Source: Desulfuromonas sp. TF (GTDB lineage Bacteria; Desulfobacterota; Desulfuromonadia; Desulfuromonadales; ATBO01). Taken from it: a stretch of 34,733 nt of DNA. Positions 9,906 to 26,560 of the stretch are shown one piece after another. The stretch spans positions 432,197 to 466,929 of the forward strand of contig NZ_KI421421.1 in NCBI RefSeq assembly GCF_000472285.1, written 5' to 3'. Below the pieces are notes generated by a model. It was not told the DNA's origin, did not search any database, and was given only the letters and a program-made list of their open reading frames with translations. Positions within the stretch are counted from its first letter, which is position 1. Every line of letters begins with the position of its first letter. Made by a program: the position numbers and the translations under genes.

Positions 9906-9935
9906 TCGTTTATCCTCTCGAAAAAAAGTCCGGTT

Positions 9936-10508: not shown

Positions 10509-10555
10509 ATGAACCCTCGGGCGGTGGATGCCGGTCCGGTGCTTGCCGTCCCTTC

Positions 10556-11725
10556 CTATAAGGTGAGGATCTTGTTCTTGAGAACCAGGATCTCGAAGGC
10601 CATGGCCGCCTTGGATGTCAGCTTCTGCAGATCGAAAAGACGCTCGCCCAGATCGATCCCTTTTCCGTCCACGTAGAGTACGCCGACCACCCGTCCCATC
10701 ATCATGAGCGGAACCATCAGGGCGACATCCGGAAGCGTTCCTCCCATCTCCTGAAGCATCATGGAATTGAAGGGGGAGCGGGGGATGGGGCCGAGATAAT
10801 AACTTTTCGTTTCGGCTACCGTTTTCAATACGGAGGGTTCGTCCAGAGGGACCTGAAGCTGATCGAATCCCGGCGACTCCTGCCGGTCGACGGCGCACTT
10901 CCATCCCAGGGCCGTCTCCCCGCGGACCAGGAAAATCGCGCAGCGGGGGAATTCCCGGGCCAGGGCGCCGAGGACTACATCGAATATATCGTCGCGGTCG
11001 CGGGCCTCCACCAGCCGTTCTACGGCAGCTTCATCGCCCACGGTTTCGACGACCGGCGCCTCCACCTCTTCCTCGTGAATGTCCGCTTCTTCGAGATCGA
11101 TCGGTTCTTCGATTTCCTCGGACGCCGACGGACCGGCCGCGCCTTCTTCAAGCTCTTCGAACCAGTCGCCTCCGGGCTCCGCCGGAGACGGCGGGGGTGC
11201 GACAGCCGTCTCCTCCAACGGTTTCGGTTCGGGCGGCGGAGCAGGTCTCTTCTTCACCTCGACCTTCTTGGCCGCATGGATGTAGCGGCGTTCGCGCTCG
11301 ATGCCGTAGTAATTTTCGAGGGCGAGAACCATCCGTACCTCAGCCACGACCGCCGGGCGGATGATGAAGCCGGTGCGGAAGGAGATCTCGTCCAGCCCCT
11401 TGAGGTCCGTGGGGTTGGACATGGCCAGGGTGAGCCGGCGTCCCTCCAGCCGAAGAGGAATCACCCGATAGCGCTCGGCTATTTCTCGGGGGATGAGCTT
11501 GATGACCTCCGGATTGACCTTCATTATCTGGTCGGCGTCGATGGCTGGAAGACCGAACTTCTTGCTCAGCGTCCGGGTAATGTCCTCCTCATCCAGGGCG
11601 CCCATCTCGATCAGATTGGTGCCGAGTCTGCCGCCGAAGATGACCTGATATTTCAAGGCCTCTTCCAGCTCGGCCGGCGAAATGACGCCCTCCTGCAGCA
11701 GGAGGTCTCCCAGTTTGAGGGCCAT
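10556..11725 (-). CDS. MshEN-domain (GspE-II N-terminal) protein with GAF-like C-terminal domain
   Basis: A 389-residue soluble protein. Residues 1-~145 form an MshEN/GspE-II N-terminal domain: LGDLLLQEGVISPAELEEAL, then GGRLGTNLIEMGALDEEDI and LPAIDAD, then a second half with IPLRLEGRRLTLAMSNPTD. In this family the RLG...L pattern and its repeat bind cyclic di-GMP. Residues ~150-235 are a Pro/Glu-rich linker. Residues ~240-389 look GAF-like (CAIFLVRGETALGWKC, then VVGVLYVDGKG). It lacks the ATPase part of pilus motor proteins, so it is a stand-alone receptor-type architecture. That it senses cyclic di-GMP is inferred from the family. A strong terminator for the upstream M23 gene lies just before it, so it probably has its own promoter or depends on readthrough. 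Confidence 0.82.
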   Translation of the reverse strand: MALKLGDLLLQEGVISPAELEEALKYQVIFGGRLGTNLIEMGALDEEDITRTLSKKFGLPAIDADQIMKVNPEVIKLIPREIAERYRVIPLRLEGRRLTLAMSNPTDLKGLDEISFRTGFIIRPAVVAEVRMVLALENYYGIERERRYIHAAKKVEVKKRPAPPPEPKPLEETAVAPPPSPAEPGGDWFEELEEGAAGPSASEEIEEPIDLEEADIHEEEVEAPVVETVGDEAAVERLVEARDRDDIFDVVLGALAREFPRCAIFLVRGETALGWKCAVDRQESPGFDQLQVPLDEPSVLKTVAETKSYYLGPIPRSPFNSMMLQEMGGTLPDVALMVPLMMMGRVVGVLYVDGKGIDLGERLFDLQKLTSKAAMAFEILVLKNKILTL

Positions 11726-11742
11726 TTTTTATTGACTCCACT

Positions 11743-11783
11743 AAAAAAATCGTGAGGCGTCCTTACCCCTCATTCCTCACGAT
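11743..11783 (-). terminator. rho-independent terminator after the M23 peptidase gene
   Basis: Read on the minus strand, a perfect 9-bp stem ATCGTGAGG/CCTCACGAT with a 17-nt loop is followed directly by seven T residues. It lies 17 nt after the stop of the M23 gene and just before the start of the MshEN gene, where it could stop or attenuate transcription. Confidence 0.85.
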
Positions 11784-11799
11784 GTAAAGGTCTTCTTGC

Positions 11800-13143
11800 T
11801 TACTGGCGAACAATGGTATCGTCGCCTTCCCGCTCCAACTGCGCCTGAAGAATTTGTCCCCCTTCGAGGCGGGCCAGCAGGGGAGCGATGGACGTTTTGA
11901 ACTCCGCCATCCGTTCCCGCGAAACCGGCGGCGCGGCCTTGGCCCGGACCTTGTTCGGATTGACCGGAGAGCCGTTATTGTACATACGGAAACAAAGGTG
12001 CGGCCCGGTGGCCAGGCCGGTGCTTCCGACATAGCCGATCGTCTGTCCTTGAACGACCCGTTTCCCTTTTTTCATCCCCTTTGCGAATCCGTTCATGTGC
12101 AGATATAAGGTTTCGTAACTGTTGTTATGGCGGAGCTTGATGAAGTTCCCGTTGTACTTGGTACGGCCGATGTTGATGATGGTGCCGTCGCCGACCGTCT
12201 TGATCGGAGTGCCTGTGGGGGCGGCGTAATCGATGGCCGGGTGGGCCTTCCAGGTTTTTGTGACGGGATGGTAACGGCGCATGGTAAAGCCGGAGGAAAT
12301 GCGGGAGAAGGCCAGGGGGGCCCGCAAAAAAGCCTTGCGTACGCTGTTGCCTTCGCCGTCGTAATAGGAGGGTCGATTATTGCCGTCCTGGTAAAGAAAG
12401 GCTCTGTAGGTGGTTCCCTGATTGGTGAATTCAGAAGCCAGAATCCGGCCGTAACCGGCCGGCTTGCCGTCGCGAAAACGCTTTTCCACAAAGGCCTGGA
12501 AGGAGTCGCCGACGCGGATGTCGCGGATGAAATCGATATCCCAGGCAAAGATGTCGGCCAGGGACATGGCCAGCTCTGGGCTCTCACCGCTTTCGGCCAC
12601 GGCTTCGAAGAGGCTGGAAGTAATCGTTCCCCGGACAAGCTCAGTATCCACCGCGTAAGAAATGGGAATGCGGGTAAGGTCGATATTTTCTTCTTCCTTG
12701 CGGATGATGAGCTGTTCATCCTTGTCGATATCGTACTCGAAGCGGTCGAAGGAGCCGTCCACGAGGCAGAGCTTGTAAGGCTGCCCGGCGCAGATTTTCG
12801 AGAGAGGGAAGACCTCCTTGCTCTTGCTGGTAAGATTGAGAAGCTCCTGGGGGGTGAAATAGTCTCCCAGCAGGGCGGTGATCGTGTCGCCCGGGCGGAT
12901 GGTCCCCTCGACGAATTCCCGGCGGATCTCCGGAACAGAAGGCTCCTGCGGCGGCACTGGTTCCGGAGCCTCGGCTTCCCTCTGCGAAGTCAGGGTGTGG
13001 GCTTCGGTATTTATCGACGGCTGCCGGCTCAGGAGGAAGACCGCGACAGCGACCGCAAGGAAAAAAATAAGAAGCGGCAGGCGGCGTCGGGAGCGACGAC
13101 GCCTGAAAGGTGAACTCTTGGGAGGATGAAAATCGAAATTCAC
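11800..13143 (-). CDS. membrane-anchored M23 family murein endopeptidase (MepM/OapA-like)
   Basis: A 447-residue protein. A basic N-terminus (FRRRRSRRRLP) precedes one membrane helix at about residues 22-39, so the rest is periplasmic. Residues ~70-165 resemble the OapA/LysM-like N-terminal module of YebA/MepM (IRPGDTITALLGDYFTPQEL). The M23 domain spans ~280-400: H301-x3-D305 (HPAIDYAAPTGTP), then LYLHM and GPHLCFRMY. In LytM-type enzymes the last motif is HxH, whose second His binds zinc. Here it is H382-L-C384, so Cys may replace His. The family cuts peptide cross-links in peptidoglycan, usually for growth. The start is GTG at 13143, with AGG about 10 nt upstream. Confidence 0.87.
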   Translation of the reverse strand: MNFDFHPPKSSPFRRRRSRRRLPLLIFFLAVAVAVFLLSRQPSINTEAHTLTSQREAEAPEPVPPQEPSVPEIRREFVEGTIRPGDTITALLGDYFTPQELLNLTSKSKEVFPLSKICAGQPYKLCLVDGSFDRFEYDIDKDEQLIIRKEEENIDLTRIPISYAVDTELVRGTITSSLFEAVAESGESPELAMSLADIFAWDIDFIRDIRVGDSFQAFVEKRFRDGKPAGYGRILASEFTNQGTTYRAFLYQDGNNRPSYYDGEGNSVRKAFLRAPLAFSRISSGFTMRRYHPVTKTWKAHPAIDYAAPTGTPIKTVGDGTIINIGRTKYNGNFIKLRHNNSYETLYLHMNGFAKGMKKGKRVVQGQTIGYVGSTGLATGPHLCFRMYNNGSPVNPNKVRAKAAPPVSRERMAEFKTSIAPLLARLEGGQILQAQLEREGDDTIVRQ

Positions 13144-13335
13144 GGGTGATTGCCTGACGTTAGGACATGAAAAGAAAGGTCAGGGCCATCTGTTCTTCTT
13201 GCGACCCCGCAGAATATTGCGCAACTTTAGCAGATTCCGCGGCCCCTTGTCCAGACGCATAAGGTCGATTTTGAAAGCTTCGTCTTCCTTTCAATTCTAT
13301 TGAAAAACATGTTGCAAATAGGCTACACATTGTGT

Positions 13336-13387
13336 TCGAAAGTGACACCTTTCGATGTGCCATCCCGAACGGCAATTTGCATGCAAA
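13336..13387. promoter_or_regulatory. candidate operator palindromes upstream of the M20 peptidase
   Basis: Two perfect inverted repeats lie in the 260-bp divergent gap. TCGAAAG (13336-13342) and CTTTCGA (13349-13355) are 7-bp arms spaced by 6 nt. TTTGCATGCAAA (13376-13387) is a 12-bp uninterrupted palindrome 16 nt before the start codon. Upstream are TTGAAA (13300-13305) and a poor TACACA (13324-13329) at 18 nt spacing. Which regulator binds is unknown. Confidence 0.35.
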
Positions 13388-13403
13388 CCAGACGAGGTAA
13401 GCG

Positions 13404-14540
13404 ATGATCGACACCGAACGTTTAACGGCGGAGTTCGCACGCCAGGCCGCCATCTCCAGCCCCTCCTTTCGGGAGGGGGAGATCGCCCGCTATCTGACGG
13501 AGCGCTTCCGGCGCATGGGCGCAGAGGTGTTCATGGACGGGGCGGGAGAGAGAGTCGGAGGGGAGAGCGGCAACCTGATTGCAGCCTTTCCCGCCAGGGG
13601 GAAGGAGGGCGAACCCCTGATGCTCTCCGTGCACATGGACACGGTGGGACCGGCCGAGGGGGTCGCTCCGCTTCTGACGGATGGGGTTTTCACCAGTGCC
13701 GGAGAAACGATCCTCGGGTCCGACGATAAGGCCGGGATTGCGGAGATTATCGAAGCTCTGGAGGTCGTCCGGGAAAACAACATCCCTCACGGTCCCATCG
13801 AGGTGGTGGTCACCATCTGCGAGGAGGTGGGCCTCCTGGGAGCCAAACACCTCGACTTCTCCCGGATCAGGTCCCGGCGAGGACTCGCCCTCGATACTTC
13901 CGGGGTCGATCTGCTCATCCATCGGGCTCCCGCGGCCAACAAGATGCGTTTTGAGATCACGGGCCGGGAGGCCCATGCCGGCATTGCCCCGGAAAAGGGA
14001 ATTTCGGCGATCCAGGTCGCCGCGGCAGCCGTTGCGGCGATGCGCCTCGGACGAATCGACGAAGAAACGACCGCGAACATCGGCACCATCCAGGGAGGGC
14101 AGGCGACGAATATCGTCCCCAAAAAGGTAATTCTCGAAGGGGAGGCGCGCAGCCACGACCCGGGAAAGCTGACTCGGCAGACCGAACACATGATTTCCTG
14201 CCTGGAGGCGGCGGCGCTGGAACGGGCGAGGGAGCTCGATGGCGGAACATTCGTACCCGAGGTGAAAACCGAGGTCATGGCCGACTACCCGGCCATGGCG
14301 GTGCCCCTCGACGGATCGATCATCCGGCTGGTGCGGGAGGCTTCCGACCGCCTCCAGCGTCCTCTGGAAATCAAGGCCGCCGGAGGCGGCTCCGATGCGA
14401 ACATCTTCAACGGGCAAGGAATTGAGACAGTCATCCTCGGCACCGGAATGACCAATGTCCACACGGTGGACGAATGCGTTCGGGTCGAGGACATGGCACG
14501 GGTCGCCGGGCTGCTGGTGGAGATCATCCGCCTGGCCTGA
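13404..14540 (+). CDS. M20 family metallopeptidase (peptidase T-like)
   Basis: A 378-residue cytosolic protein with the M20 metal site in order: H77-x-D79 (SVHMDTVG), bridging D107 (GSDDKAG), the catalytic/ligand pair E140-E141 (TICEEVG), D164 (ALDTSG) and the late His353 (NVHTVDEC). The dimerisation domain has GREAHAGIAPEKGISA. The pattern matches the PepT-like M20B group, which removes N-terminal residues from small peptides. The size is normal. GAGG lies about 6 nt before the ATG. A hairpin follows the stop. Its relation to the divergent M23 peptidase across a palindrome-rich gap suggests peptide or wall turnover, but that is inference. Confidence 0.9.
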   Translation: MIDTERLTAEFARQAAISSPSFREGEIARYLTERFRRMGAEVFMDGAGERVGGESGNLIAAFPARGKEGEPLMLSVHMDTVGPAEGVAPLLTDGVFTSAGETILGSDDKAGIAEIIEALEVVRENNIPHGPIEVVVTICEEVGLLGAKHLDFSRIRSRRGLALDTSGVDLLIHRAPAANKMRFEITGREAHAGIAPEKGISAIQVAAAAVAAMRLGRIDEETTANIGTIQGGQATNIVPKKVILEGEARSHDPGKLTRQTEHMISCLEAAALERARELDGGTFVPEVKTEVMADYPAMAVPLDGSIIRLVREASDRLQRPLEIKAAGGGSDANIFNGQGIETVILGTGMTNVHTVDECVRVEDMARVAGLLVEIIRLA

Positions 14541-14554
14541 GCTGCCGTCTGGAC

Positions 14555-14581
14555 GCCCTGTTCCGGTTCCCGGAACAGGGC
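14555..14581 (+). terminator. perfect hairpin after the M20 gene, no T-tract
   Basis: GCCCTGTTCCGG (14555-14566), loop TTC, CCGGAACAGGGC (14570-14581): a 12-bp perfect stem with a 3-nt loop, 14 nt after the stop. No T-run follows, so it may be an inefficient terminator or an RNA-stabilising hairpin rather than a classic terminator. Confidence 0.45.
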
Positions 14582-14650
14582 TCGCCACAAGAAAGGGGAT
14601 TCAGGTTCCGTTATACTGGAGGAAACTCCACCCCCGCATCCGGTGGCGCC

Positions 14651-15982
14651 ATGGATAAATTTTCCGGACCAGGCAATTCGCGTGTCCATAGCTGGCTGAA
14701 ACGGCTGGTCAAGGTGGAACCGGAAGAAGTCCGCGCACTCCTCTGGTCCTTCAGCTACTTTTTCGCCCTTCTGTGCTCTTATTATATCGTGCGGCCCATG
14801 CGCGACGAGATGGGGATCGCCGGAGGGGTCGAACATCTTCAGTGGCTCTTTACCGGCACCTTCCTGGCCATGCTCGCCGCGGTTCCCCTGTTCGGCTGGA
14901 TCTCTTCGCGTTATCCCCGCAAGACGTTTCTCCCCCTCGTCTACTTTTTCTTCATCGCCAATCTGCTGATCTTCTTCGGACTCTTCCGCTCCGGGCTGAC
15001 CCACGCCTGGGTGGCCCGGGCCTTTTTCATCTGGACCAGTGTCTTCAACCTGTTCATCGTGTCGGTCTTCTGGAGTTTCATGGCCGATCTTTTCAACGAC
15101 TCCCAGGCGAAGCGCCTGTTCGGCTTCATAGCCGCCGGCGGCACCGCCGGCGCATTGGCCGGCCCCGCTCTGACCGCCACCCTGGCCATTCCTCTGGGAC
15201 CGACCAATCTGCTGCCGATCTCCGCCCTCGGTCTCGGGTGGGCGGTGCTGAGCATCCACCGGCTGGCCGCCTGGCGGAAGAGGATCGATCCCGGACCGTC
15301 CGCTTCGGCTTCAGCTTCCGGGGGCTCCTCCCCGGACGGGAGGAATCGCGGTCTGGGGGGCGGGGCCTGGGCGGGCATCCGGCTGATCGCCCGATCGCCT
15401 TACCTCCTGGGGATCTGCCTCCTGATCCTGCTCTTCACAACCCTTTCGACCTTCCTCTATTTTCAGCAGGCGCACATCATCGAGGACAGTTTCGCCGATC
15501 CGGCGAAGCGCACAGCGGTCTTCGCGGGGATCGATTTTGCCGCCAACGCGCTGACCCTCGTCATCCAGGTTTTCTTCACCAGCCGCATCGTCAAGGCGCT
15601 GGGGATGGCCTGGAGCCTGGCGCTGATCCCCCTGCTGCTGGGGGGCGGCTTTCTGCTGCTCGGCACGGCGCCGCTGCTGGCGGTGCTGGTGGCCGTACAG
15701 GTGGTGCGGCGAGCCGGCAATTACGCCATCATGAAACCGTCCCGGGAGATGCTCTTCGTCGTTCTCGGCGAGGAGGAAAAATACAAGGCGAAGAACGTGA
15801 TCGACACGGTCATCTACCGCAGCGGCGACGTGATCAGCGCCTGGGCCTATGCGGGTCTGCAGGCCCTCGGCCTGGGGCTCTCGGCCATCGCCTTCATCGC
15901 CGTGCCGATATCCGTGCTGTGGGCGTGGATCTGCTATCAGCTTGGAAAGGCGCAGGAAAAGAGAGCGGGTGTCCATCCGTAG
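14651..15982 (+). CDS. NTP/NDP exchange transporter-like membrane protein (MFS fold)
   Basis: A 443-residue inner-membrane protein with about 11-12 hydrophobic segments. The N-terminal signature YYIVRPMRDEMGIAGG and the downstream MADLFNDSQAKRLFGFIAAGG match the bacterial relatives of the ATP/ADP translocase family (TlcA/NTT). They also contain EKYKAKNVIDTVIYRSGD near residue 380. In obligate intracellular bacteria these proteins import ATP or nucleotides; free-living homologs have no assigned substrate. It has an internal Ser/Gly-rich linker between the two halves (ASASASGGSSPDG). The open frame extends upstream into the M20 gene, but the ATG at 14651 gives the natural start. GGAGG is 26 nt upstream, so the initiation signal is weak. 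Confidence 0.82.
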   Translation: MDKFSGPGNSRVHSWLKRLVKVEPEEVRALLWSFSYFFALLCSYYIVRPMRDEMGIAGGVEHLQWLFTGTFLAMLAAVPLFGWISSRYPRKTFLPLVYFFFIANLLIFFGLFRSGLTHAWVARAFFIWTSVFNLFIVSVFWSFMADLFNDSQAKRLFGFIAAGGTAGALAGPALTATLAIPLGPTNLLPISALGLGWAVLSIHRLAAWRKRIDPGPSASASASGGSSPDGRNRGLGGGAWAGIRLIARSPYLLGICLLILLFTTLSTFLYFQQAHIIEDSFADPAKRTAVFAGIDFAANALTLVIQVFFTSRIVKALGMAWSLALIPLLLGGGFLLLGTAPLLAVLVAVQVVRRAGNYAIMKPSREMLFVVLGEEEKYKAKNVIDTVIYRSGDVISAWAYAGLQALGLGLSAIAFIAVPISVLWAWICYQLGKAQEKRAGVHP

Positions 15983-16023
15983 TTTCCGGATAACCACTAG
16001 CTCGATAGAGAGGAGGTATCGCC

Positions 16024-16959
16024 ATGAACGGAAACGACCATCCGATATCCCGAAGGAGCTTCATCGGTTCTCTGACAGCGGTGCTTGCGGCCTTCTGGTT
16101 GGCTCCGCAGGGGCTGCGAGCGGCGGAGAGAAAGCTGATCCGAAAGGCGATTCCGGCCACCGGCGAGACCTTGCCGGTCATCGGGCTGGGCACCTCGCGG
16201 ACCCTGGACGTCGGCGGTGATCGAGCCGCCCTGCCAACCCTTGCCGAGGTCCTGCAGTCCTTCTTCGGCCACGGCGGAGAGCTGATCGATTCCTCGCCCA
16301 TGTACGGCTCGGCGGAACAGGTCATCGGCGAGCTGCTGAACCGCGTCGGGCACGGGGACCGGCTCTTTGCCGCGACCAAGGTCTGGACCGACGGCGAGCA
16401 GGCCGGCATACGGCAGATGGAAGACTCCCGTCGGAAGTGGGGCGTCCGCCGCTTCGACCTGATGCAGATTCACAACCTGCGCGATTGGCAAACCCACATG
16501 AAGACACTCCAGGCCTGGAAAGCCGATGGGAAAATCCGCTATACCGGGATCACCACGTCTCATGGCCGATTTCACCGGGAACTGGAAGAGATCCTGCGCA
16601 ACGAATCGCTGGATTTCGTACAGCTCAGCTACAACATCGAAGACCGCACCGCCGAAGAGCGTCTGCTGCCGCTGGCTGCAGAACGCGGGATGGCGGTCCT
16701 GGTCAACCGCCCCTATCAGCGCGGCGATCTCTTCCGCAAGATCAGGGGCAAAGAGCTGCCAGAGTGGGCAGCCGAATTCGACTGCACGAGCTGGGGCCAG
16801 TTCTTCCTCAAGTTCATCGTTTCCCACCCGGCGGTCACCTGCGTTATTCCCGCCACTTCCAGGGTCGATCATATGGAGGACAACATGGCGGCGGGCTTCG
16901 GCCGTCTGCCGGATGCCGCGACGCGCAGGAAGATGGTCGGCTACTTTGAATCTCTGTAA
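16024..16959 (+). CDS. Tat-exported aldo/keto reductase
   Basis: A 311-residue protein. The N-terminus carries a twin-arginine signal (SRRSFIG, residues 9-15) followed by a hydrophobic core and AAE, so it should be exported folded to the periplasm. The body is an aldo/keto reductase TIM barrel with the catalytic tetrad D89 and Y94 (DSSPMYGSAE), K119 (FAATKVW) and H150 (DLMQIHN). These enzymes reduce aldehydes or ketones with NAD(P)H, which is scarce in the periplasm. That conflict suggests a cofactor loaded in the cytoplasm before export, or a different role. AGGAGG is well placed 7 nt before the ATG. It is 41 nt after the transporter stop and may be in its operon. Confidence 0.88.
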   Translation: MNGNDHPISRRSFIGSLTAVLAAFWLAPQGLRAAERKLIRKAIPATGETLPVIGLGTSRTLDVGGDRAALPTLAEVLQSFFGHGGELIDSSPMYGSAEQVIGELLNRVGHGDRLFAATKVWTDGEQAGIRQMEDSRRKWGVRRFDLMQIHNLRDWQTHMKTLQAWKADGKIRYTGITTSHGRFHRELEEILRNESLDFVQLSYNIEDRTAEERLLPLAAERGMAVLVNRPYQRGDLFRKIRGKELPEWAAEFDCTSWGQFFLKFIVSHPAVTCVIPATSRVDHMEDNMAAGFGRLPDAATRRKMVGYFESL

Positions 16960-17140
16960 AGGAGGTCAGCCGTCCAGGATCGAAAGATTTGCCTCTCATC
17001 TTTCACTAATAGGGGCTTATTTAGCTCCTGCGTTGTGTGTTATGCTGTTCAAGGCCTGAAGCCCCATTTTCGAGTATGCGGCCGAATATTCAAAAAACAG
17101 GATCTGCAACATTCCAGTTGAGGTCAGAGGAGATGTTTTC

Positions 17141-19186
17141 ATGCAGGTAACTGAAATCATGGTTCCTGCCAGGGTTCAGATTCGTCCCTGGGACAATATA
17201 CGCAAGGCCATTGAGTTGCTTAAGCAATCCAAGCTCAATGGAGTGCCTGTCGTCGACCAAGAAGGAAAGCTCGTCGGATTTTTCGGCCGCTCGAATCTTT
17301 TTGACTGCCTGCTCAACGATATAAGCCTCGATACGGCTATAGAGAACTACTACATCCGCGATGTCGTTTATCTTCGCGAAGACAAAACCTATGACAGCCT
17401 GGAAGAACTGTCTCACTGGCTGCATACCTGCATGGTAGGCCAGACTGTCGTCGTGGATATGGACCATGAGCCGATCGGGATATTGACCCAGGCCGCATCC
17501 GTCATCGATCTGCTCGACCGCACCGAGTATTTGTACAAGGAATTGTCGAGCGTCATTGAGAATGTCCCGGCGGGTATCCTGGCTACCAATGAGGCGGGGA
17601 TCATCACCCTGGCCAATCAATATGCTCAGGACATTCTGCAAGAGGTTAAAAAGGGAAAATACATCGGCAATTATTTCAGTGTCCTGAAAGCCGATTTTTC
17701 GCCCGTCACCCGTGGCGACTGGATTGCACCGCGTAAGATTGAACATAAATCCCTGAAGCTTATCGCGACTGCTGTGCCGATCTATCAGAACACCCAGGTC
17801 AAGGGTGTGATTTTTGTCATCCAGGATATGACGGATGTCGAAGGAGTAGCCCATGAGCTCGGAGCCGTCAAGGAGCTCAAATCGACCCTTGAGACGGTTC
17901 TGGATGTCGCTTACGAAGGGGTAGCCGTCCTGGATGAACAGGGGCGGATCACCTTGGCGAATGCAAGCTTTTGCAGGAAAGTCGACAAATCAAGAGATCA
18001 GGTTATTGGACAGAATATCAGTAAATTCATCCCGATAACGGACGAAGAGTTGACTCTGAAAGCCTTGGAAATCAACTCCAAGCCTTGTGTGGTCTCTTCC
18101 ATGCCGTATACGAAACCCGACAACGCCAAAGGATTCGTCATAAAGATATACGAAGACCTCGATCAGCTGTCCGACGTCATGCAGCAGCTGAACAGGCTGA
18201 ATATGCAGCTCGATTATTACAAGGACGAGCTCTACAAGGCCAATGGCACGAGCTACACCTTGAATAACATCGTCGGCAATAATGAAATCATTGCGAGAAT
18301 AAAAGCACAGATCATGCAAGTGGCCCGCGGCAATTCGAACGTGCTGATTTCAGGAGAAAGCGGCACCGGCAAGGAGTTGTTTGCGCATTCGATCCATAAC
18401 GCCTCACTGCGGCGCAAGGAGCCTTTCATAAAAGTCAATTGTTCCGCGATCCCCGCGGAGCTTGCCGAATCAGAGCTGTTCGGCTATGAAGACGGAGCTT
18501 TTACCGGAGCGCGCAGGCAAGGCAAGCCGGGCAAGTTCGAACTGGCGGACGGCGGGACGATTTTCCTCGATGAGATCGGTGACATGCCGCTTCTGCTCCA
18601 GGGCAAGCTCCTTCGGGTCATTCAGGAAAAAGAAGTCGAAAGGGTGGGCGGGGTTAAGACGCGTAAAGTCGACGCCAGAATCATTGCCGCCACCAACAGG
18701 GACTTGAAACGTCTCGTCGGCGAAGGCACGTTCAGAGAGGATCTCTATTTCAGGATCAATGTCATCGAGTTCAAGATCCCCCCGCTGCGGGAGCGCAAAC
18801 AGGACATCCAGGTGCTCGCCGATCATTTCATAAAGAAGTACAACGATCGTTTCACGAAAAGGGTAAAAGGCATTGCCGACGAGGCCGTAGAGGCTTTGGT
18901 TCGATATGATTGGCCCGGCAATATCAGAGAGCTGGAAAACATCATAGAGAGAATGATGAATTACATCGAGAGCGGATGGGTCGATCTCAAGGACGTACCA
19001 GAGGAAATCAGGTCACCGGAGATGGAGTCCACGAAGACGGCACAGAGCCTGGCCCTGGCCGACATCGAACAGGAAGCGATCCGTGCCGCCCTCGACGAGG
19101 CTCGGGGGAACAAGTCCAAGGCGGCAAGGTTGCTGGGGATCAGCAGATCGAAACTCTACGAAAAGCTCTCTACGGATCAGTCCTGA
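17141..19186 (+). CDS. sigma-54-dependent transcriptional activator with CBS pair and two PAS-like domains
   Basis: A 681-residue regulator. Residues 1-125 are two CBS motifs (MQVTEIMVPARV, GVPVVDQEGKLVGFF, PIGILTQ), which often bind adenine nucleotides. Residues ~130-235 and ~250-340 are PAS-like (VIENVPAGILATNEAGIITLAN; VAYEGVAVLDEQGRITLAN). The AAA+ core has Walker A GESGTGKE (405-412), the sigma-54 contact loop GAFTGA (452-457) and Walker B TIFLDEIGD. A Fis-type helix-turn-helix ends it (GNKSKAARLLGISRSKLYEKL). There is no receiver domain, so it is probably not phosphorylated and senses through CBS or PAS. Its base composition is a little lower in G+C than its neighbours. AGGAG lies 8 nt before the ATG. 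The sigma-54 promoter at 19354 lies downstream, before the molybdoenzyme gene. Confidence 0.93.
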   Translation: MQVTEIMVPARVQIRPWDNIRKAIELLKQSKLNGVPVVDQEGKLVGFFGRSNLFDCLLNDISLDTAIENYYIRDVVYLREDKTYDSLEELSHWLHTCMVGQTVVVDMDHEPIGILTQAASVIDLLDRTEYLYKELSSVIENVPAGILATNEAGIITLANQYAQDILQEVKKGKYIGNYFSVLKADFSPVTRGDWIAPRKIEHKSLKLIATAVPIYQNTQVKGVIFVIQDMTDVEGVAHELGAVKELKSTLETVLDVAYEGVAVLDEQGRITLANASFCRKVDKSRDQVIGQNISKFIPITDEELTLKALEINSKPCVVSSMPYTKPDNAKGFVIKIYEDLDQLSDVMQQLNRLNMQLDYYKDELYKANGTSYTLNNIVGNNEIIARIKAQIMQVARGNSNVLISGESGTGKELFAHSIHNASLRRKEPFIKVNCSAIPAELAESELFGYEDGAFTGARRQGKPGKFELADGGTIFLDEIGDMPLLLQGKLLRVIQEKEVERVGGVKTRKVDARIIAATNRDLKRLVGEGTFREDLYFRINVIEFKIPPLRERKQDIQVLADHFIKKYNDRFTKRVKGIADEAVEALVRYDWPGNIRELENIIERMMNYIESGWVDLKDVPEEIRSPEMESTKTAQSLALADIEQEAIRAALDEARGNKSKAARLLGISRSKLYEKLSTDQS

Positions 19187-19540: not shown

Positions 19541-21589
19541 ATGACGACGTCACATCAGGTTCTGACCGATTGCACACTCTGCTATCACAGCTGCGGCACC
19601 AGGGTGACCATCGAAGACGGCAAGGCCGTCAAGGTGGAAGGACTCGAAAACCATCCGATCAACCACGGTGAGCTCTGTCCCAAAGGCGAGGCGGCCCTGA
19701 CCCACATCTACTCGCCCGATCGGATCAAGACGCCGCTGAAGAAGGTCGACGGGAAGTTCGTCCCCATTTCCTGGGATCAGGCGCTCGATGAGATCGCCGC
19801 CAAACTTCTCGACCTGAAGGAGAAGTTCGGCCCCAGCGTTCTGGGGGTGTTCAGCGGCTCCATCGGGGTCGAGAACCTGGAGATGGCTCAGCTGACCCAG
19901 CGATTCAAGGCCGCCTTCGGCTCACCGAACTTTTTTTCCGTGGAGAGCATCTGCTATCGGATGCGCATCCGCACCCGTCAGATCACCTTCGGCAAGTATC
20001 CCACCGAGGAGCTCGATTCCAACCTCTACATCCTCTGGGGGCACAATCCCGATGCGAGCGACTTCCCCCTGAAGCTCGCCATGGAAAAAAATCTCGCCAA
20101 AGGTGCAAAGCTCGTGGTCATCGACCCGCGGCGCATCCCCCTGGCCGACCAGGCCGACATGTACCTGAAGATTCGCCCCGGCACGGACGGCGCCATGGCG
20201 ATGGCGATGCTGCACGTCATCATCAAGGAAGACCTGGTCGACCATGACTTCATCGAGAAGAACACCTTCGGGTACGACAAACTGGTGCCGCACATCGAAC
20301 CCTTCACTCCCGAGTGGGCAGAGGAAATCACCTGGGTGCCCGCCGACAAGATCAGGGAACTGGCGCGCCAGTTCGCAACCACCAAAGGGGCATCCATCTA
20401 CCAGGGAACGTGCACCCAGGACCAGACTGCCGGCGGCACGCAGAACAGCCGCGTCTTTTCCGTACTGCAGATCGTCACCGGCAACATCAACGTGCCCGGT
20501 GGATGGGTCATCAGTCCGCGTCCGCATTTCGGCAATGTGGGGCTCAATGTGGAAGGAGACCCTCTCGGCATGGACAAATACCCGTTGTTCATTGAAGTGT
20601 GGGGGCGCAAGAGTCCTTACGGCGTCATCACCATGGTTCCGGAGGCGATCCCTGACAAGCTGAAGGCATTTTACGTGGTGGGCGGAAATCCCCTGGTCTC
20701 CATGGCCGACTCCAATGCCTTCCGCGAAGCGTTCCGCCGGCTGGACCTGCTGGTGGTGCACGATATGTTCATGACGGAGACCGCCAAGGAAGCTCATTAC
20801 GTGCTGCCGGCCTGTTCCCACCTGGAAAAATGGGGACTGGCGTACACCTACAACGTCTGCCACTGCCTCCCTTACCTGATGCTCCGCAAGAAGTGCATCG
20901 AACCGGTGGGAGAGAGCTGGTCCGAATGGAAGCTGTTTACCGAGTTGGCCAAAAGGCTCGGGCTGGGCGATCAGTTCCCCTGGGAGAGCGAAGAGGATCT
21001 CATCCGTTTCGAACTCGGACCCAGCGGACTGACGTTCGAGCAGCTGCTGGAAGAGAACCCCGAAGGCCTCTATTATGGCGAGAAGAAGTATGAGATCCGG
21101 GACGGCCTCTTCGCGACACCTACCGGGAAGATCGAGATTTACAGCGATGCCATGGAGAAGGTCGGAGCGAATCCCCTTCCGGTGTATATCGAACCGGAAC
21201 GCAGCCCGAGGAAGAGCGACAAGGCCTATCTGGAGAAATACCCGCTCATCCTCTCCACCGGACATCGCAACTACTATTATGTGCACTCGCAGTTCCGGGA
21301 CGTCGATGCTCTGAAGAAGGAAGCCCCGGGGCCGGTGGCCGAAATGGGGCCGGAGACCGGAAAGCGGTACGGCTTGACCACGAATGACGACATCATCATC
21401 GAAACCAACCGGGGCCAGGTCAGGATGAAAGTGGCCCTGGACGAGAGTGTCGCCGAAGGATGTATATTCGTGCCCCACGGATGGTCCGGCGAAGCCAATG
21501 CCAACCTGCTGACCGACACCGACTGCCGGGAATCGATACTCGGTTATCCCGACGTAAAGTCGCTGATGTGTTCGGTACGTAAAGCCTGA
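19541..21589 (+). CDS. single-subunit bis-MGD molybdopterin (Mo/W) oxidoreductase, substrate unknown
   Basis: A 682-residue cytoplasmic member of the DMSO reductase superfamily with no Tat signal. The N-terminal [4Fe-4S] ligands are C11-x2-C14-x3-C18 and C46 (GELCPKG). Superfamily stretches include ISWDQALDEIA, KGAKLVVIDPRR, GTDGAMAMAMLHVI and the C-terminal LSTGHRNYYYVHSQFR and PHGWSGEANANLLTD. The metal-ligand position is probably C138 in SVESICYRMRIR. Formate dehydrogenases usually have Cys/Sec followed by His here; this has Tyr. The acetylene hydratase Asp beside the cluster is Tyr15 here. So it is neither a standard formate dehydrogenase nor a plain acetylene hydratase. No electron-transfer subunit gene is adjacent. 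AAGGA is 8 nt before the ATG. Gene order places it under sigma-54 control. Confidence 0.92.
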   Translation: MTTSHQVLTDCTLCYHSCGTRVTIEDGKAVKVEGLENHPINHGELCPKGEAALTHIYSPDRIKTPLKKVDGKFVPISWDQALDEIAAKLLDLKEKFGPSVLGVFSGSIGVENLEMAQLTQRFKAAFGSPNFFSVESICYRMRIRTRQITFGKYPTEELDSNLYILWGHNPDASDFPLKLAMEKNLAKGAKLVVIDPRRIPLADQADMYLKIRPGTDGAMAMAMLHVIIKEDLVDHDFIEKNTFGYDKLVPHIEPFTPEWAEEITWVPADKIRELARQFATTKGASIYQGTCTQDQTAGGTQNSRVFSVLQIVTGNINVPGGWVISPRPHFGNVGLNVEGDPLGMDKYPLFIEVWGRKSPYGVITMVPEAIPDKLKAFYVVGGNPLVSMADSNAFREAFRRLDLLVVHDMFMTETAKEAHYVLPACSHLEKWGLAYTYNVCHCLPYLMLRKKCIEPVGESWSEWKLFTELAKRLGLGDQFPWESEEDLIRFELGPSGLTFEQLLEENPEGLYYGEKKYEIRDGLFATPTGKIEIYSDAMEKVGANPLPVYIEPERSPRKSDKAYLEKYPLILSTGHRNYYYVHSQFRDVDALKKEAPGPVAEMGPETGKRYGLTTNDDIIIETNRGQVRMKVALDESVAEGCIFVPHGWSGEANANLLTDTDCRESILGYPDVKSLMCSVRKA

Positions 21590-21700: not shown

Positions 21701-23203
21701 ATGCACGGCATCTACAGCTACAGCAAAGACAGCACGGGCCAAGGTCAATTGACGGCGCGGGAGAAAGAGGTGGTGGAAGAGTTCCCCCTCGTTCTGAACG
21801 TGAACGGTCGGGAGATCGCGACCCTCATCGCCTCTCCACACGACCTCCGTTATCTCGCTGTCGGCTTCCTCCGTCTCCAGGGGTTCGTCGAGCGGATGGA
21901 GGATTTCAATCTCCTCTCGGTCTGCAGCGATTTCGGGATGGCGCGGGTCGAGATCAAAGGGGAGCTCCCGGAAAAACTAAAGCCGGTCCTGACCTCCGGT
22001 TGCGGCACGGGGATCGCCTTCACCATTCCCCAGGCGCTGAAAGAAGGACTTTCCGGTGATCCCGGCAGACGTTTTTCGGCCGATGAGATATTCGCCATGA
22101 TGAACGAACTCGGTACGCGCGCCCAGCGCTACCGGAGCCACGGAGGAATGCATTCCGCCGCCGCAGGCGACGGAAGCATCTCTTTCTTCTCCGAAGATCT
22201 GGGGCGCCACAACACCATCGACCGCATTGCCGGCGAGGCTCTCATCAAGGGAATCGATCTGCATGGCATGATGCTGGTCACGTCGGGGCGGATCTCCACG
22301 GAGTTGGTGGCCAAGTCGGCGCTGCTCGGCATGCCGCTGATCGCCTCCCGCACCTCGCCGACCAATATGGCGATCAAGATGGCGGAGACAGCGGGAATCA
22401 CGCTGGTCGGGTACGTCCGGGGCGGCCGCTTCGAAGTCTACACGCACCGCGAGCGGCTGCAGATCGCCGATTCCGCGGAGAAGGTCAAAGGGGTGACCGG
22501 GGTCATCCTGGCCGGCGGCGCCGCCAGCCGGATGGGGAGCAACAAGGCCCTGCTTCCCCAGAACGGGGTCCGGTTCATCGAGGGGATATACCGGACCCTG
22601 GAAGGACTGTTCGAGGAGGTGATCGTCGTCACGAATACGCCGGAGCAGTATGCATTCCTGCCCTGCCGGAAGGTGCCGGATCTCTACCCGGGAAAGGGAG
22701 TGCTGGCGGGAATCCACTCGGGGCTGATGCACAGCGAGACCCCCGCGATATTTACCGTGGCCTGCGACATGCCGAGCCTGAATGCCGCTCTGATAAAGCA
22801 CCTCTGTTCACTTTCGGGCGGCGTGGATCTGGTCATATCCTCTACGGATCGAGGCTTCGAACCGCTCCATGCCCTCTACGGCAAAGGGTGTCTGCCCGCC
22901 CTTGAAGAGCTCCTGCAGAGTGAGGCCAACAGGAGGGTCATCGCCCTCCTGTCGCGCGTGCAGTCCCGGGAAGTCCACCCGGAGGAGATTGCGCCCTTCG
23001 ATCCGGAGTTCAGCTCCTTCGACAACATCAATACGCCGGAAGACTACTTTCGGCTGAGAAACGGGCGGCAAAGAACCGGAAAAGAAGGAGAAGGAGACGA
23101 AAAAGCCGTTCGGTCCCCGTATGCTCCGGGGCTGAGGAGAAGCGAACCCCGCCTGAAAACGACGGAACAAGCAGCGCCTCAACCTAGCATAAAGGAGAGA
23201 TGA
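21701..23203 (+). CDS. fdhD: FdhD-MobA fusion: sulfurtransferase plus molybdopterin guanylyltransferase
   Basis: A 500-residue fusion. Residues 1-~262 are FdhD, which passes sulfur to the bis-MGD cofactor of formate dehydrogenase-like enzymes. Its motif region reads TSGC101GTG, keeping one Cys but not the second Cys of the E. coli CxxC. SEDLGRHNTIDRIAGEAL and TSGRISTELVAKSALLGMP are typical family blocks. Residues ~266-455 are MobA: GVILAGGAASRMGSNKALLP is the nucleotide-binding signature, followed by FTVACDMPSL and EPLHALYGKG. MobA attaches GMP to molybdopterin. The last ~45 residues are charged and look unstructured. Together the fusion couples cofactor building with cofactor sulfuration. 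AGGAGG lies 9 nt before the ATG, and the next gene begins 3 nt after the stop. Confidence 0.92.
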   Translation: MHGIYSYSKDSTGQGQLTAREKEVVEEFPLVLNVNGREIATLIASPHDLRYLAVGFLRLQGFVERMEDFNLLSVCSDFGMARVEIKGELPEKLKPVLTSGCGTGIAFTIPQALKEGLSGDPGRRFSADEIFAMMNELGTRAQRYRSHGGMHSAAAGDGSISFFSEDLGRHNTIDRIAGEALIKGIDLHGMMLVTSGRISTELVAKSALLGMPLIASRTSPTNMAIKMAETAGITLVGYVRGGRFEVYTHRERLQIADSAEKVKGVTGVILAGGAASRMGSNKALLPQNGVRFIEGIYRTLEGLFEEVIVVTNTPEQYAFLPCRKVPDLYPGKGVLAGIHSGLMHSETPAIFTVACDMPSLNAALIKHLCSLSGGVDLVISSTDRGFEPLHALYGKGCLPALEELLQSEANRRVIALLSRVQSREVHPEEIAPFDPEFSSFDNINTPEDYFRLRNGRQRTGKEGEGDEKAVRSPYAPGLRRSEPRLKTTEQAAPQPSIKER

Positions 23204-23206
23204 TCC

Positions 23207-24085
23207 ATGTCCGACCAGGGATTTCACCAATTCAACGGCACCGAGAAGTACGTTGCCTCCCGGGCCCTCCAGGATGTCGTCAACGTTGCCCTGGCGCTGG
23301 AGCGTCCGCTGCTGCTGAAGGGAGAGCCGGGCACGGGAAAGACGCTTCTTGCCTATCATATCGCCGAATCCCTCGGGATGGAACTCATCCTCTGGAACGT
23401 GAAGTCAACCACCAAGGCGAGCAGCGGTCTCTACACCTACGATACGGTGCAGCGTCTGAACGATGCCCGTTTTGGGGACGGCGATGTGCGCGACATCCGG
23501 CGTTATATCAAACTCGGTCCTTTGGGGCGGGCCTTTGCGCGTCCCGAAAGGGTCGTGCTTCTCATCGACGAGGTGGACAAGGCCGATATCGAATTTCCCA
23601 ACGACCTGCTCTTCGAATTGGATGAGATGCGTTTTCACATCCTGGAGACCGACGAATGGGTGGAAAGCGCCCACCGGCCGGTGGTGATCGTTACGTCGAA
23701 CTCGGAGAAGGAACTTCCCGACGCCTTCCTTCGACGATGTGTCTTTCACTATATCGATTTTCCTGACGAAGATCAGATGCGCGCCATCATCGATGTGCAT
23801 TATCCGGGACTCTCCGGAGAGCTTCTCCAGAACGCCCTGAAGGTCTTCTACGGCGTACGCAAGGTTCCCGGATTGCGAAAACGCCCCTCGACTTCGGAAC
23901 TGCTGGATTGGATACGGGCGCTGCTGGCCAGCGGGGCGAAACTGACCGCGGAGGAGACCTCGCCATCCAAGGATGTCCCGTTTCTGGGGACCCTCCTCAA
24001 GATGGAGGGGGACCTCGACTCCCTGTCCCGCCACGCCAAACGCCCCACGGATGTGCGCACGGCAGGACGAAGCTCCGTCCGCTGA
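23207..24085 (+). CDS. MoxR family AAA+ ATPase
   Basis: A 292-residue cytosolic AAA+ protein. Walker A is GEPGTGKT (39-46), Walker B VVLLIDEVDKAD (116-127), and VIVTSNSEKELPDAFLRRC (sensor 1 and arginine-finger region) follows. MoxR proteins work with a VWA-domain partner as chaperone pairs in metalloenzyme activation; CoxD/CoxE in CO dehydrogenase maturation are the best precedent. Its ribosome binding site (AAAGGAG) overlaps the end of the FdhD-MobA gene, and the stop codon overlaps the start of the VWA gene by one base (TGATG), so the three are translationally linked. This placement suggests action on the molybdoenzyme, which is inference. Confidence 0.9.
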   Translation: MSDQGFHQFNGTEKYVASRALQDVVNVALALERPLLLKGEPGTGKTLLAYHIAESLGMELILWNVKSTTKASSGLYTYDTVQRLNDARFGDGDVRDIRRYIKLGPLGRAFARPERVVLLIDEVDKADIEFPNDLLFELDEMRFHILETDEWVESAHRPVVIVTSNSEKELPDAFLRRCVFHYIDFPDEDQMRAIIDVHYPGLSGELLQNALKVFYGVRKVPGLRKRPSTSELLDWIRALLASGAKLTAEETSPSKDVPFLGTLLKMEGDLDSLSRHAKRPTDVRTAGRSSVR

Positions 24086-25257
24086 TGTTTCTCTCCCTCT
24101 TTCATGCCCTGCGGGCACTGAGGGTGCCGGTCAGCGTCACCGAGTGGCTCACCCTCCTGGAGGGCCTTTCCAAGGGACTCCACAAGGAGAGCCTCAACGA
24201 TTTCTATTATCTGTCCCGCAGTCTGCTCGTGAAGGACGTCGCCTACTACGACGCCTTCGACCAGGCTTTTGCACACTGTTTCAAGGGGCAATCGCTTCCT
24301 GAGGATCTGGTGACCAGGGAGCAGATTCTCGAATGGCTCCAGGGGCCCCTCGCGCCGCTTCGTCTCTCTCCCGAGCAGATCGAGGAGATGAAAGCGCTCT
24401 CTCTGCCCGAGCTTCTGCGGGAACTGGAGAAGAGGCTGCAAGAGCAGGAGAAACCCCATCACGGGGGGCAAAAGTGGATCGGCACCGGCGGGACGAGTCC
24501 GTACGGCGCCAATGGCAGCCATCCCTCGGGAGTCTCCTTCGCCGCCCAAGGCAGCGGCGGGCGGGCCGCCTTGCAGGCCGTGGCCCGCAGGTATCGCAAT
24601 CTGCGCAACGATCTGACTCTGGACGTGCGCCAGATCAGCGTGGCACTGAAACGGCTGCGCGATCTTCGGGACTGCGGAGCCGAGGAGGCCCTGGACCTGG
24701 ACGCCACGATTGATAAAACCTGCCATAACGGCGGCGAAATCGATCTGGTTTTCGCCAGGGAACCGCAGAATCAGATTCGTCTCCTGCTGGTGATGGACTC
24801 GGGAGGCTCCATGGAGCCTTTCCGCAACCTCTCGGAAAGGCTCTTCTCGGCCGCCAACAAGCTCAACCACTTCAAGGACTTTCGCACTTTCTACTTTCAC
24901 AACTGTGTTTACGATAAGCTCTATACCAATCTCGAAACCGGTGAATTCGTCCCGACTGCCGAGGTTCTTCTGAAATGCGCCAAAACCTACCGGCTCATCA
25001 TGGTCGGCGATGCCGCCATGTCGCCTTACGAACTCTTTTACCACACCGACCTGCTGGATCATCTGCACACGCGCGACGTCCAGGGGATCGACTGGCTCCG
25101 ACAGCTCTCCGAGGTCTTTCCCCGTCGCGCATGGATGAACCCTCTGCCGGAAAATTCCTGGGCGCATTACGAAACCGTCCCGACAGTGGGGGCGCTCTTC
25201 CCGATGTTCCCCCTCACGCTCGAGGGGCTCACTCGAGCTGTCCGGCATCTACGGTAG
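24085..25257 (+). CDS. VWA domain-containing CoxE-like protein
   Basis: A 390-residue soluble protein. Residues 1-~120 are helical (LRVPVSVTEWLTLLEGLSKGL). A Gly-rich family signature follows at ~127-155 (HGGQKWIGTGGTSPYGANG). The VWA domain starts near 230 with a metal-ion-dependent adhesion motif D238-S-G-G-S242, where the usual DxSxS has Gly at the third position. YHTDLLDHL and WMNPLPENSWAHYETVP are typical of CoxE-like partners of MoxR ATPases. It probably binds substrate enzymes for the MoxR partner. The ATG shares one base with the MoxR stop codon; the open frame extends further upstream but overlaps MoxR completely, so the ATG at 24085 is chosen. It is the last gene of this block, 91 bp before the MFS gene. 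Confidence 0.9.
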   Translation: MFLSLFHALRALRVPVSVTEWLTLLEGLSKGLHKESLNDFYYLSRSLLVKDVAYYDAFDQAFAHCFKGQSLPEDLVTREQILEWLQGPLAPLRLSPEQIEEMKALSLPELLRELEKRLQEQEKPHHGGQKWIGTGGTSPYGANGSHPSGVSFAAQGSGGRAALQAVARRYRNLRNDLTLDVRQISVALKRLRDLRDCGAEEALDLDATIDKTCHNGGEIDLVFAREPQNQIRLLLVMDSGGSMEPFRNLSERLFSAANKLNHFKDFRTFYFHNCVYDKLYTNLETGEFVPTAEVLLKCAKTYRLIMVGDAAMSPYELFYHTDLLDHLHTRDVQGIDWLRQLSEVFPRRAWMNPLPENSWAHYETVPTVGALFPMFPLTLEGLTRAVRHLR

Positions 25258-25348
25258 CCGGAGCCTCCCAGACGCTTTCTCCCGGAAGGGCCACGATATC
25301 TCGGACTAGTCCCGTCCCGGCAGATCCATTTTTTGCAGGAGTATGCGA

Positions 25349-26560
25349 GTGATTCGTACCGACCGGAAAACCCTGTGGACCACCCCCTTCTGCCTGACCA
25401 TGCTCGGGATGCTGTTTCTCTTCATCCCGTTTTCACTCTATATGCCGGTCCTCCCCGCCTACCTCCTGGAGGAGTTGAACAGCTCCCTGCAGGCGGCGGG
25501 CGCGGTCAATGCGGCCTTTCTCATTGCCGCCGTGCTGTTCAGGGTCCATACCCCCCGACTCGAGGCACGATTCGGCGTCCGGCGGGTTCTGCTGGCCAGC
25601 GGAATTGTTTTCACGGCAACCAATGCGATCTATCTGGGGCTGGACTCCGTCGCCGGTATCCTGCTGAACAGGTTCGTCAGCGGCGCCGCTTTCGCCATCG
25701 TCAACACGTCGACCATGGCCCTCGGCAGTCGGCTTGTCCCACGATCAAGAATCGGCGAAGGCCTGGCCTATCTGACGACCATGGTGCTGGCCGGCGGTGC
25801 CGTCGGTCCGTACATCGGCCTGAAGCTTTCCTCTGTTTACGGCTACCCCTCGGTATTTATCTTCTCGACTTTGACCACCCTGCTCGGCCTGCTGATCATC
25901 TGTCTTGTTCCTGACCGTGAAGAAATGGCGAAGACGCCCGCGCGCATCTCCGTACGGGATCTGTTCGAGGTGAAGGCCGTTCCTGTTTCGCTGATCATCC
26001 TTGTACTCGCTTTTTCCTACGGCGGCGTGATGACCTTTGTGGTCGTCTATGCCTCGGAACTTCATCTGCCGCTGGTCATCGAGTATTTCTTCGTGGTTAT
26101 GGCGACCGCTTCCGTGCTTTCGCGCCTGGCAACCGGCCGATTGTATGACCGTCTTGGAGCCGATGCCGCGATTTGCGTGTCCATCGTCATCCTGGCAGGA
26201 GGGCTGATGATCCTGGGCGGGATCCATATCACCGCGTGGATGCTGCTGGCTGCCGCAATGATCGGCGTTGGATATGGAAGCGCTGTCCCCAGCATGCAGG
26301 CGCTGGCCATTCAGATCTCCCCGGAGCATCGCAGCAGCGCGGTGACAGCGACCTTTTTCACCTGCGTCGACGGAGGCATCGGCCTGGGCGCGTATGTTCT
26401 GGGAGGCGGCATTCAGGCCTTCGGATACGCAGCCGTCTACCTTGCACTGGGGGTGATGAGCTTCGGCTGCCTCCTGTCTTACTACCTCCTTTCAACCGCA
26501 AACAGGCGTTCCCAAAACGGACCTCTTCCCCCGCGGTCACCCGAGCCGGGGAGGGAGTGA
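25349..26560 (+). CDS. MFS transporter
   Basis: About 403 residues with 12 likely membrane segments in two halves joined by a basic/acidic loop near residue 190 (PDREEMAKTPARISVRD). The first half has RLEARFGVRRVLLASG, close to the MFS loop 2-3 motif, and the second half repeats it (RLYDRLGADAAICVS). The family moves small molecules by proton coupling; the substrate is not readable. It resembles drug/sugar-efflux-type members in the pattern SGAAFAIVNTSTMALGSRLVPRSRIGEG. An ATG lies at 25343, but the AGGAG is only 1 nt from it. The GTG at 25349 is 7 nt from the AGGAG, so it is the better start. Whether it belongs to the molybdoenzyme block is unclear. Confidence 0.87.
   Translation: MIRTDRKTLWTTPFCLTMLGMLFLFIPFSLYMPVLPAYLLEELNSSLQAAGAVNAAFLIAAVLFRVHTPRLEARFGVRRVLLASGIVFTATNAIYLGLDSVAGILLNRFVSGAAFAIVNTSTMALGSRLVPRSRIGEGLAYLTTMVLAGGAVGPYIGLKLSSVYGYPSVFIFSTLTTLLGLLIICLVPDREEMAKTPARISVRDLFEVKAVPVSLIILVLAFSYGGVMTFVVVYASELHLPLVIEYFFVVMATASVLSRLATGRLYDRLGADAAICVSIVILAGGLMILGGIHITAWMLLAAAMIGVGYGSAVPSMQALAIQISPEHRSSAVTATFFTCVDGGIGLGAYVLGGGIQAFGYAAVYLALGVMSFGCLLSYYLLSTANRRSQNGPLPPRSPEPGRE

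Follow-up and report, generated by a model that had tools for sequence, protein, structure and literature searches.

The 34,733-nucleotide stretch of the Desulfuromonas sp. TF genome analysed here (contig NZ_KI421421.1, positions 432,197 to 466,929; the window) encodes a predicted molybdenum or tungsten enzyme of the DMSO reductase superfamily together with an FdhD-type maturation gene, which raises the question of whether this enzyme is a formate dehydrogenase (FDH) or acts on a different substrate. Guided by active-site residues that differ from those of both FDH and acetylene hydratase (AHT), an initial annotation had argued that the maturation gene does not make the enzyme an FDH and that a new substrate class is possible. 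The features of the window on which the answer turns are as follows.

17141..19186, plus strand: sigma-54 dependent regulator with CBS, PAS, AAA and HTH domains (from its domains; orthologs lie beside the same enzyme gene in loci L047, L181 and L183)
19541..21589, plus strand: bis-MGD (Mo/W) oxidoreductase of the DMSO reductase superfamily, 682 aa (Pfam and AlphaFold)
19571..19594, plus strand: [4Fe-4S] motif C11-x2-C14-Y15-x2-C18, with Y15 at the position of AHT Asp13 (alignments; PMC12096430)
19676..19684, plus strand: fourth cluster cysteine C46 and K48, the latter aligned with the electron-transfer Lys44 of FdhF (alignment)
19952..19957, plus strand: predicted metal ligand C138, followed by Y139 at the position of FdhF His141 (alignments)
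20519..20521, plus strand: R327, aligned with the second-sphere Arg333 of FdhF (alignment only)
21701..23203, plus strand: FdhD-MobA fusion (Pfam FdhD-NarQ 238 bits, NTP_transf_3 133 bits; TIGR00129 above cut-off)
23207..24085, plus strand: MoxR-type AAA ATPase (Pfam AAA; kept in L045; a 55% paralog lies beside the host bam cluster)
24085..25257, plus strand: VWA (CoxE-like) protein, partner of the MoxR ATPase (Pfam VWA_CoxE; L045)
25343..26560, plus strand: MFS transporter (Pfam MFS_1; kept in L045 and L046)

The enzyme gene starts with ATG, and its product exceeded the gathering cut-offs for Molybdop_Fe4S4 (PF04879), Molybdopterin (PF00384) and Molydop_binding (PF01568). No signal peptide was found in the 682-residue protein, whose N terminus (MTTSHQVLTDC) has no twin-arginine signal. 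Codons for the key residues lie at 19571-19573 (C11), 19592-19594 (C18), 19676-19678 (C46), 19952-19954 (C138) and 19955-19957 (Y139), so that C11 and Y139 mark the exact ends of the span 19571-19957. Sequence alignment with four solved relatives placed C138, within SICYRMR, on the ligand Cys or Sec of 9t1s, 7qv7, 2e7z and 2vpw; in the alignment with Escherichia coli FdhF, Sec140 and His141 fell on C138 and Y139, respectively, and C138 was invariant across 52 aligned sequences. These alignments and the overall fold match point to C138 as the metal ligand. The ligand is followed by His in the F420 formate dehydrogenase 9t1s (Sec, shown as X) and in the HDCR FdhF 7qv7 (Cys), by Ile in the acetylene hydratase 2e7z and by Thr in the polysulfide reductase 2vpw (Cys in both), and by Met in NapA. 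The cluster motif, the ligand and the Tyr at both flanking positions had thus been assigned correctly to the residue, and the protein indeed has the defining residue of neither named family.

The two tyrosines differ in what they tell. In AHT, which binds its cluster through Cys9/12/16/46 and its metal through Cys141, Asp13 is the residue immediately after the second cluster Cys (PMC12096430), and it aligned with Y15. The CxxCYxxC motif was kept, with Y15 invariant, in 21/21 members of the family, and Y15 occurred in none of the 37 other superfamily proteins compared (PsrA has Phe there), so the motif is not a product of chance. The second-sphere residues of FDH are His and Arg (PMC13397495). 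At the position of the His, 20 of the 21 family members have Tyr and one has Phe; in the 37 non-family proteins this position holds Tyr in 6, Phe in 6 and Trp in 5 (17/37 aromatic). Because aromatic residues are common there outside the family, only the missing His is informative, and Tyr139 is weaker evidence than the invariant Tyr15: a Tyr after the ligand Cys is not diagnostic. Both departures on which the initial annotation relied are therefore real, but it made too much of the second. It also missed R327, which is Arg in 17/21 members and aligned with FdhF Arg333, although the RGQNN motif around Arg333 is absent and the gapped loop alignment makes the match tentative. The active site may thus not be wholly unlike that of FDH.

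The best NCBIfam model for the protein was Fdh-alpha (TIGR01591), at 361 bits against a cut-off of 666. With this score below the cut-off and the His absent, membership of the FDH family was rejected, and the idea was kept as a rival: a divergent FDH or CO2 reductase, with Tyr for the second-sphere His, that provides the pathway with formate or formyl units. We consider it very unlikely. Shared with FDH H and HDCR FdhF are the superfamily, a Cys/Sec ligand, the cluster, a Lys after the fourth Cys, the tentatively aligned Arg and FdhD maturation, and it is the FdhD partner, the Arg and TIGR01591 as best model that speak for such an enzyme. So does a 60% relative in Desulfosarcina cetonica (L059), which sits inside the published acetone-degradation region of an organism whose C1 donor in this pathway was reported as unknown (PMC7888143). 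Against these stand the score far under the cut-off, Tyr139 for His, a nearest fold that is AHT, a position in the tree outside FdhF/HDCR (SH-aLRT 99) and the separate canonical FDH paralog of the host, with an ARLCH motif (L004). In the host, fdhD occurs three times, on each occasion close to a different superfamily gene, so fdhD is no marker of FDH in this organism, in line with the initial view that it does not make the enzyme an FDH. In L059 the region (1592-17819) further encodes a ThDP enzyme, an acyl-CoA mutase and an SDR, and the CoA ligase adjoining the relative reads as two overlapping frames.

We turned to fold and phylogeny, two of the checks that the initial annotation had suggested. 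The AlphaFold2 model built from 52 aligned sequences (mean pLDDT 92.4, pTM 0.92) had AHT as its top Foldseek match (E 2.6e-58, TM 0.89). Among the families listed by VIA-align, AHT (2e7z) likewise ranked first, with Z 42.5 and an rmsd of 2.0 over 665 residues, followed at a gap of more than 3 Z units by formate dehydrogenases (Z 39.4 and 38.4) and polysulfide reductase (Z 37.6); by sequence, AHT tied with HDCR FdhF. In a quick tree with query-biased sampling, an unsure root and no characterised catechol dehydroxylase included, the family formed a clade (SH-aLRT 100) apart from FdhF/HDCR, PsrA and NapA, and it and AHT were separate clades within one broad assemblage.

The enzyme resembles AHT of Pelobacter/Syntrophotalea acetylenica in being a soluble single subunit of similar size with the closest solved fold and a Cys ligand, yet differs in sequence (about 28-29% identity), in Tyr15 for Asp13, in Tyr139 for the Ile after the ligand and in its aromatic/CoA gene context. 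A hydratase like AHT, adding water to an unsaturated acyl-CoA or an alkyne with no net redox change, would match the nearest fold and the shared assemblage, and an SDR beside the gene in L051, L056, L057, L064 and L131/L155 could oxidise the hydroxylated product. However, Asp13 is subfamily-specific and essential in AHT, where the Asp13Ala substitution abolishes activity (PMC12096430), and its counterpart is Tyr in every family member; we regard this reaction as quite unlikely.

Comparison with FDH and AHT alone, as made initially, shows that the defining residue of each is missing but leaves out other relevant neighbours, the catechol dehydroxylases of the gut (Dadh, Hcdh and their relatives). 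These are bis-MGD enzymes that act on aromatic rings, in the known cases on free catechols and not on CoA esters; they too are closest to AHT and have homologs in Geobacter and Desulfobacula (PMC7028382). Judged by their published description, they differ from the window enzyme in substrate, as CoA esters are proposed for the latter. The best reading is that the enzyme belongs on the AHT/catechol dehydroxylase side of the superfamily.

Two further bis-MGD systems bear on this placement. PsrA/PhsA is exported by the Tat route and works as the catalytic subunit alongside Fe-S and membrane subunits. The window enzyme shares with it (2vpw) the fold, the Cys ligand and an aromatic residue after the second cluster Cys, but has no Tat signal, and its neighbours include no electron-transfer or membrane subunits; they are instead the regulator and the FdhD-MobA, MoxR, VWA and MFS genes. 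Pyrogallol transhydroxylase (4v4c), a bis-MGD enzyme on phenols that was among the fold matches, offers a model for the opposite reaction on an aromatic CoA ester, namely oxidative ring hydroxylation or hydroxyl transfer. With 4v4c 22 decades weaker than FDH by sequence and only 48th by fold, and with benzoyl-CoA routes needing fewer hydroxyls rather than more, such a reaction strikes us as extremely improbable.

The neighbouring genes in the window are of regulatory, maturation and transport types. The sigma-54 dependent regulator likely controls the operon; its best NCBIfam match was PrdR, a proline reductase regulator, below cut-off. The fusion protein is predicted to combine a metal-centre sulfurtransferase (FdhD) with a molybdenum cofactor guanylyltransferase (MobA). 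Among close relatives the fusion varies, with overlapping ORFs in L045 and the MobA-like part only in L047. The MoxR-type ATPase is presumed to be a maturation factor, and the VWA reading frame, called from 23908, probably starts at the ATG at 24085. Directly upstream of the regulator, an aldo/keto reductase (16024-16959) has an N terminus, ISRRSFIGSLTAVLAAFWLAPQG, that resembles a twin-arginine export signal and is unusual for its family. Elsewhere in the window, 7506-8384 and 8410-9246 (292 and 278 aa) are apparent tandem copies that join a rhodanese domain to a ferritin-like/rubrerythrin-type C-terminal part.

When 84,980 species genomes were scanned, 20 loci reached about 60-90% identity. 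Every one of these came from Thermodesulfobacteriota or from a MAG labelled Deltaproteobacteria; further relatives, at 42-47%, were found in Dehalococcoidia, along with paralogs. Two subfamilies, about 60% identical and both present in some genomes, are marked by CTLCYHSCG (the window type) and by C[VA]LCYHSCG or CCLCYQSCG. In an even sample of Thermodesulfobacteriota, 23 of 297 genomes carried a relative of at least 59% identity. Among 147 relatives from the host's own order no close ortholog was found beyond 36-42% identity, so the family is patchy; on plasmids, only distant matches (<32%) appeared.

What actually points to a substrate is the aromatic/acyl-CoA gene context, which the initial annotation had not noticed; its suggestion of a new substrate class fares well in so far as these neighbourhoods favour a substrate outside formate and acetylene. 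We compared one longest locus per relative (36 loci including the window) with 56 other superfamily loci. Because the loci share ancestry and have flanks of unequal length, the p-values are optimistic and serve only as a guide. Within 3 kb of the enzyme, a CoA ligase lay in 14/36 family loci versus 1/56 others (p=3.3e-6), BamB/C/D or BamA in 7/36 versus 0/56 (p=1e-3), and butyrate kinase/phosphotransbutyrylase (Buk/Ptb) in 4/36 versus 0/56; any of these genes was present in 23/36 versus 1/56 (p=1.6e-11). An independent CoA ligase count, two duplicate loci included, gave the same picture (13/34 versus 1/97). At the window locus itself, no CoA ligase, Buk/Ptb or Bam gene adjoins the enzyme.

Several arrangements are operon-like. 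The enzyme shares one direction with BamB-BamC in L167 (BamB-BamC-enzyme), with BamB-BamC-BamD in L168 and with BamB-BamC-HdrA-MvhD-NuoE in L169, the enzyme gene coming first in these last two; BamB, C, D and HdrA adjoin CoA ligase-enzyme in L049, and in L052 BamC-BamB is divergent from CoA ligase-enzyme-IclR-TRAP. The BamB proteins of L052 and L168 matched the solved Geobacter metallireducens BamB (4z3w) at 831 and 688 bits, respectively. In L048/L065, genes like BamE-I (HdrA-MvhD-NuoE-NuoF-short NuoG) precede CoA ligase-enzyme, and BamB/C/D core genes lie near the enzyme in L185 and L187. L155 holds enzyme-SDR-ABC transporter-MFS-CoA ligase-SDR-Had-BamA within 14 kb, with Had (TIGR03201) and BamA (TIGR03200) both over curated cut-offs. 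The locus of an 89% ortholog, L181, encodes phenylphosphate carboxylase beta (TIGR02724 above cut-off) and a phenylphosphate-synthase-like pair (PPDK_N/PEP-utilizer), continuing with HK-RR-Buk-Ptb-sigma54 regulator-enzyme-FdhD/MobA. Enoyl-CoA hydratase, FMN reductase and 3-hydroxyacyl-CoA dehydrogenase genes lie near the enzyme in L054. No informative neighbour of the enzyme was seen in L058, L159, L162, L164 or L170. In L187 (8936-13693) the relative beside BamB-BamC is split into three reading-frame pieces, as is BamB, through gene decay or assembly error. In two separate lineages, genes of the xanthine oxidase family occur at a distance of a few kb from the enzyme (L045, 9053-11838; L052, 12438-14673), 62% and 55% identical to each other and both under the 4-hydroxybenzoyl-CoA reductase cut-offs.

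Next, we asked how the family is distributed relative to benzoyl-CoA genes. With BamA called by TIGR03200 (E up to 1e-90) in the 297-genome sample, 17/23 carriers had BamA as against 56/274 non-carriers (odds ratio 11, p=2.6e-7). The link of the family to benzoyl-CoA genes is strong but, since 6/23 carriers are without BamA, not strict. Those six carriers also suit the idea of an oxidoreductase whose acyl-CoA substrates are not aromatic but aliphatic or alicyclic, with the bam link reflecting shared habitat and co-located degradation islands. The Buk/Ptb genes that adjoin the enzyme in Geobacteraceae and the beta-oxidation genes in L054/L166 would fit aliphatic acids too, butyrate kinase included; but BamB/C/D directly adjacent in several separate lineages (L049, L052, L167-L169, L185) and the Had-BamA adjacency in L155 make this explanation unlikely.

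In the host's order, BamA exceeded the cut-off in 20/147 genomes, and the host BamA lies on the same contig, 235 kb from the enzyme gene. The genome has several BamB homologs and a full bamBCDEFGHI cluster, near which are an FdhD (62% to that of the window), a sigma-54 regulator, another superfamily enzyme, a MoxR (55%) and a VWA protein (38%), so the window enzyme and the host's cluster for aromatic ring reduction are accompanied by the same types of helper gene. Besides the pair in the window, the host has two superfamily-enzyme/FdhD pairs (L193, 4060-6795 and 9967-10656; L195, 5435-8953) that lie about 20 kb or less from BamB homologs, one of them beside this full cluster, which suggests that several Mo/W enzymes serve the aromatic metabolism of the host. 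Phenylphosphate carboxylase was not found in the host genome, and phenol was accordingly rejected as a general substrate for the host, although L181 has that enzyme. Gmet_1810, a benzoate-induced molybdopterin oxidoreductase near bamB2 of G. metallireducens (PMC1924859), looked at first like a family member; a host cluster, C12, with BamB-BamC, FdhD, an 838-aa superfamily enzyme at 33% identity and ferredoxin and NrfD subunits, proved the better analogue, and Gmet_1810 was not used as evidence.

Together, these observations make a role in an aromatic-acid pathway well supported. We are fairly confident that the protein is an acyl- or aryl-CoA pathway enzyme and not an FDH. A CoA-ester substrate is suggested by the CoA ligase or Buk/Ptb neighbours, and the Bam, Had/BamA and phenol genes make an aromatic one likely. 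Taken as a whole, the best reading, which we hold to be on balance probable, is an uncharacterised aromatic acyl-CoA enzyme of the AHT/catechol dehydroxylase branch, most likely a reductive dehydroxylase. Dehydroxylation itself is the least certain part and is proposed tentatively, by analogy, because catechol dehydroxylases perform such chemistry (PMC7028382) and because nitrate and sulfate reducers reductively dehydroxylate protocatechuyl-CoA to 3-hydroxybenzoyl-CoA (PMC4585845).

On this proposal, the enzyme would be a soluble, cytoplasmic, single-subunit Mo- or W-bis-MGD protein with one [4Fe-4S] cluster and Cys138 on the metal, that helps to degrade CoA thioesters of aromatic (or alicyclic) acids without oxygen and feeds the class II benzoyl-CoA (BamBCDEFGHI) pathway. 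An acid taken up via a TRAP or ABC transporter would be converted to its CoA ester by an AMP-forming CoA ligase, or by Buk/Ptb in Geobacteraceae. Oxygen-atom transfer at the Mo/W centre would follow, most likely to take a hydroxyl off the ring of a substrate such as 3-hydroxybenzoyl-CoA or protocatechuyl-CoA, with electrons entering via the [4Fe-4S] cluster and the product passing to BamB. FdhD-MobA would provide the guanylated, sulfurated cofactor, and MoxR-VWA would probably aid metal insertion or activation. To our knowledge, dehydroxylation of an aryl-CoA ester is so far known only in the xanthine oxidase family. The enzyme in question, 4-hydroxybenzoyl-CoA reductase, would be a functional analogue (Mo-dependent aryl-CoA dehydroxylation) from an unrelated Mo superfamily, and genes of its family lie near two of the relatives (L045, L052). 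The family might, as a somewhat doubtful possibility, comprise the aryl-CoA dehydroxylase of bis-MGD type that has been missing in strict anaerobes and that would feed hydroxybenzoyl-CoA esters (3-hydroxybenzoyl-CoA, protocatechuyl-CoA) to the tungsten BamB complex.

The superfamily and the wider AHT/catechol dehydroxylase group, including unassigned Geobacter and Desulfobacula members, were already known (PMC7028382). In the open-access literature, we found neither this subfamily nor its CxxCYxxC/CYRMR signature nor the operonic bam link described, and no assigned gene in the reports on catechol degradation that were read. For automatic annotation, the result corrects a family whose best curated model is that of an FDH. 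Strict anaerobes degrade hydroxylated and substituted aromatic acids via steps that are not all assigned to enzymes; the family, carried by a substantial minority of sampled Thermodesulfobacteriota (23/297), linked to benzoyl-CoA genes and marked by an invariant, distinct motif, provides a concrete candidate for gene deletion and assay in those Geobacteraceae that can be cultured.
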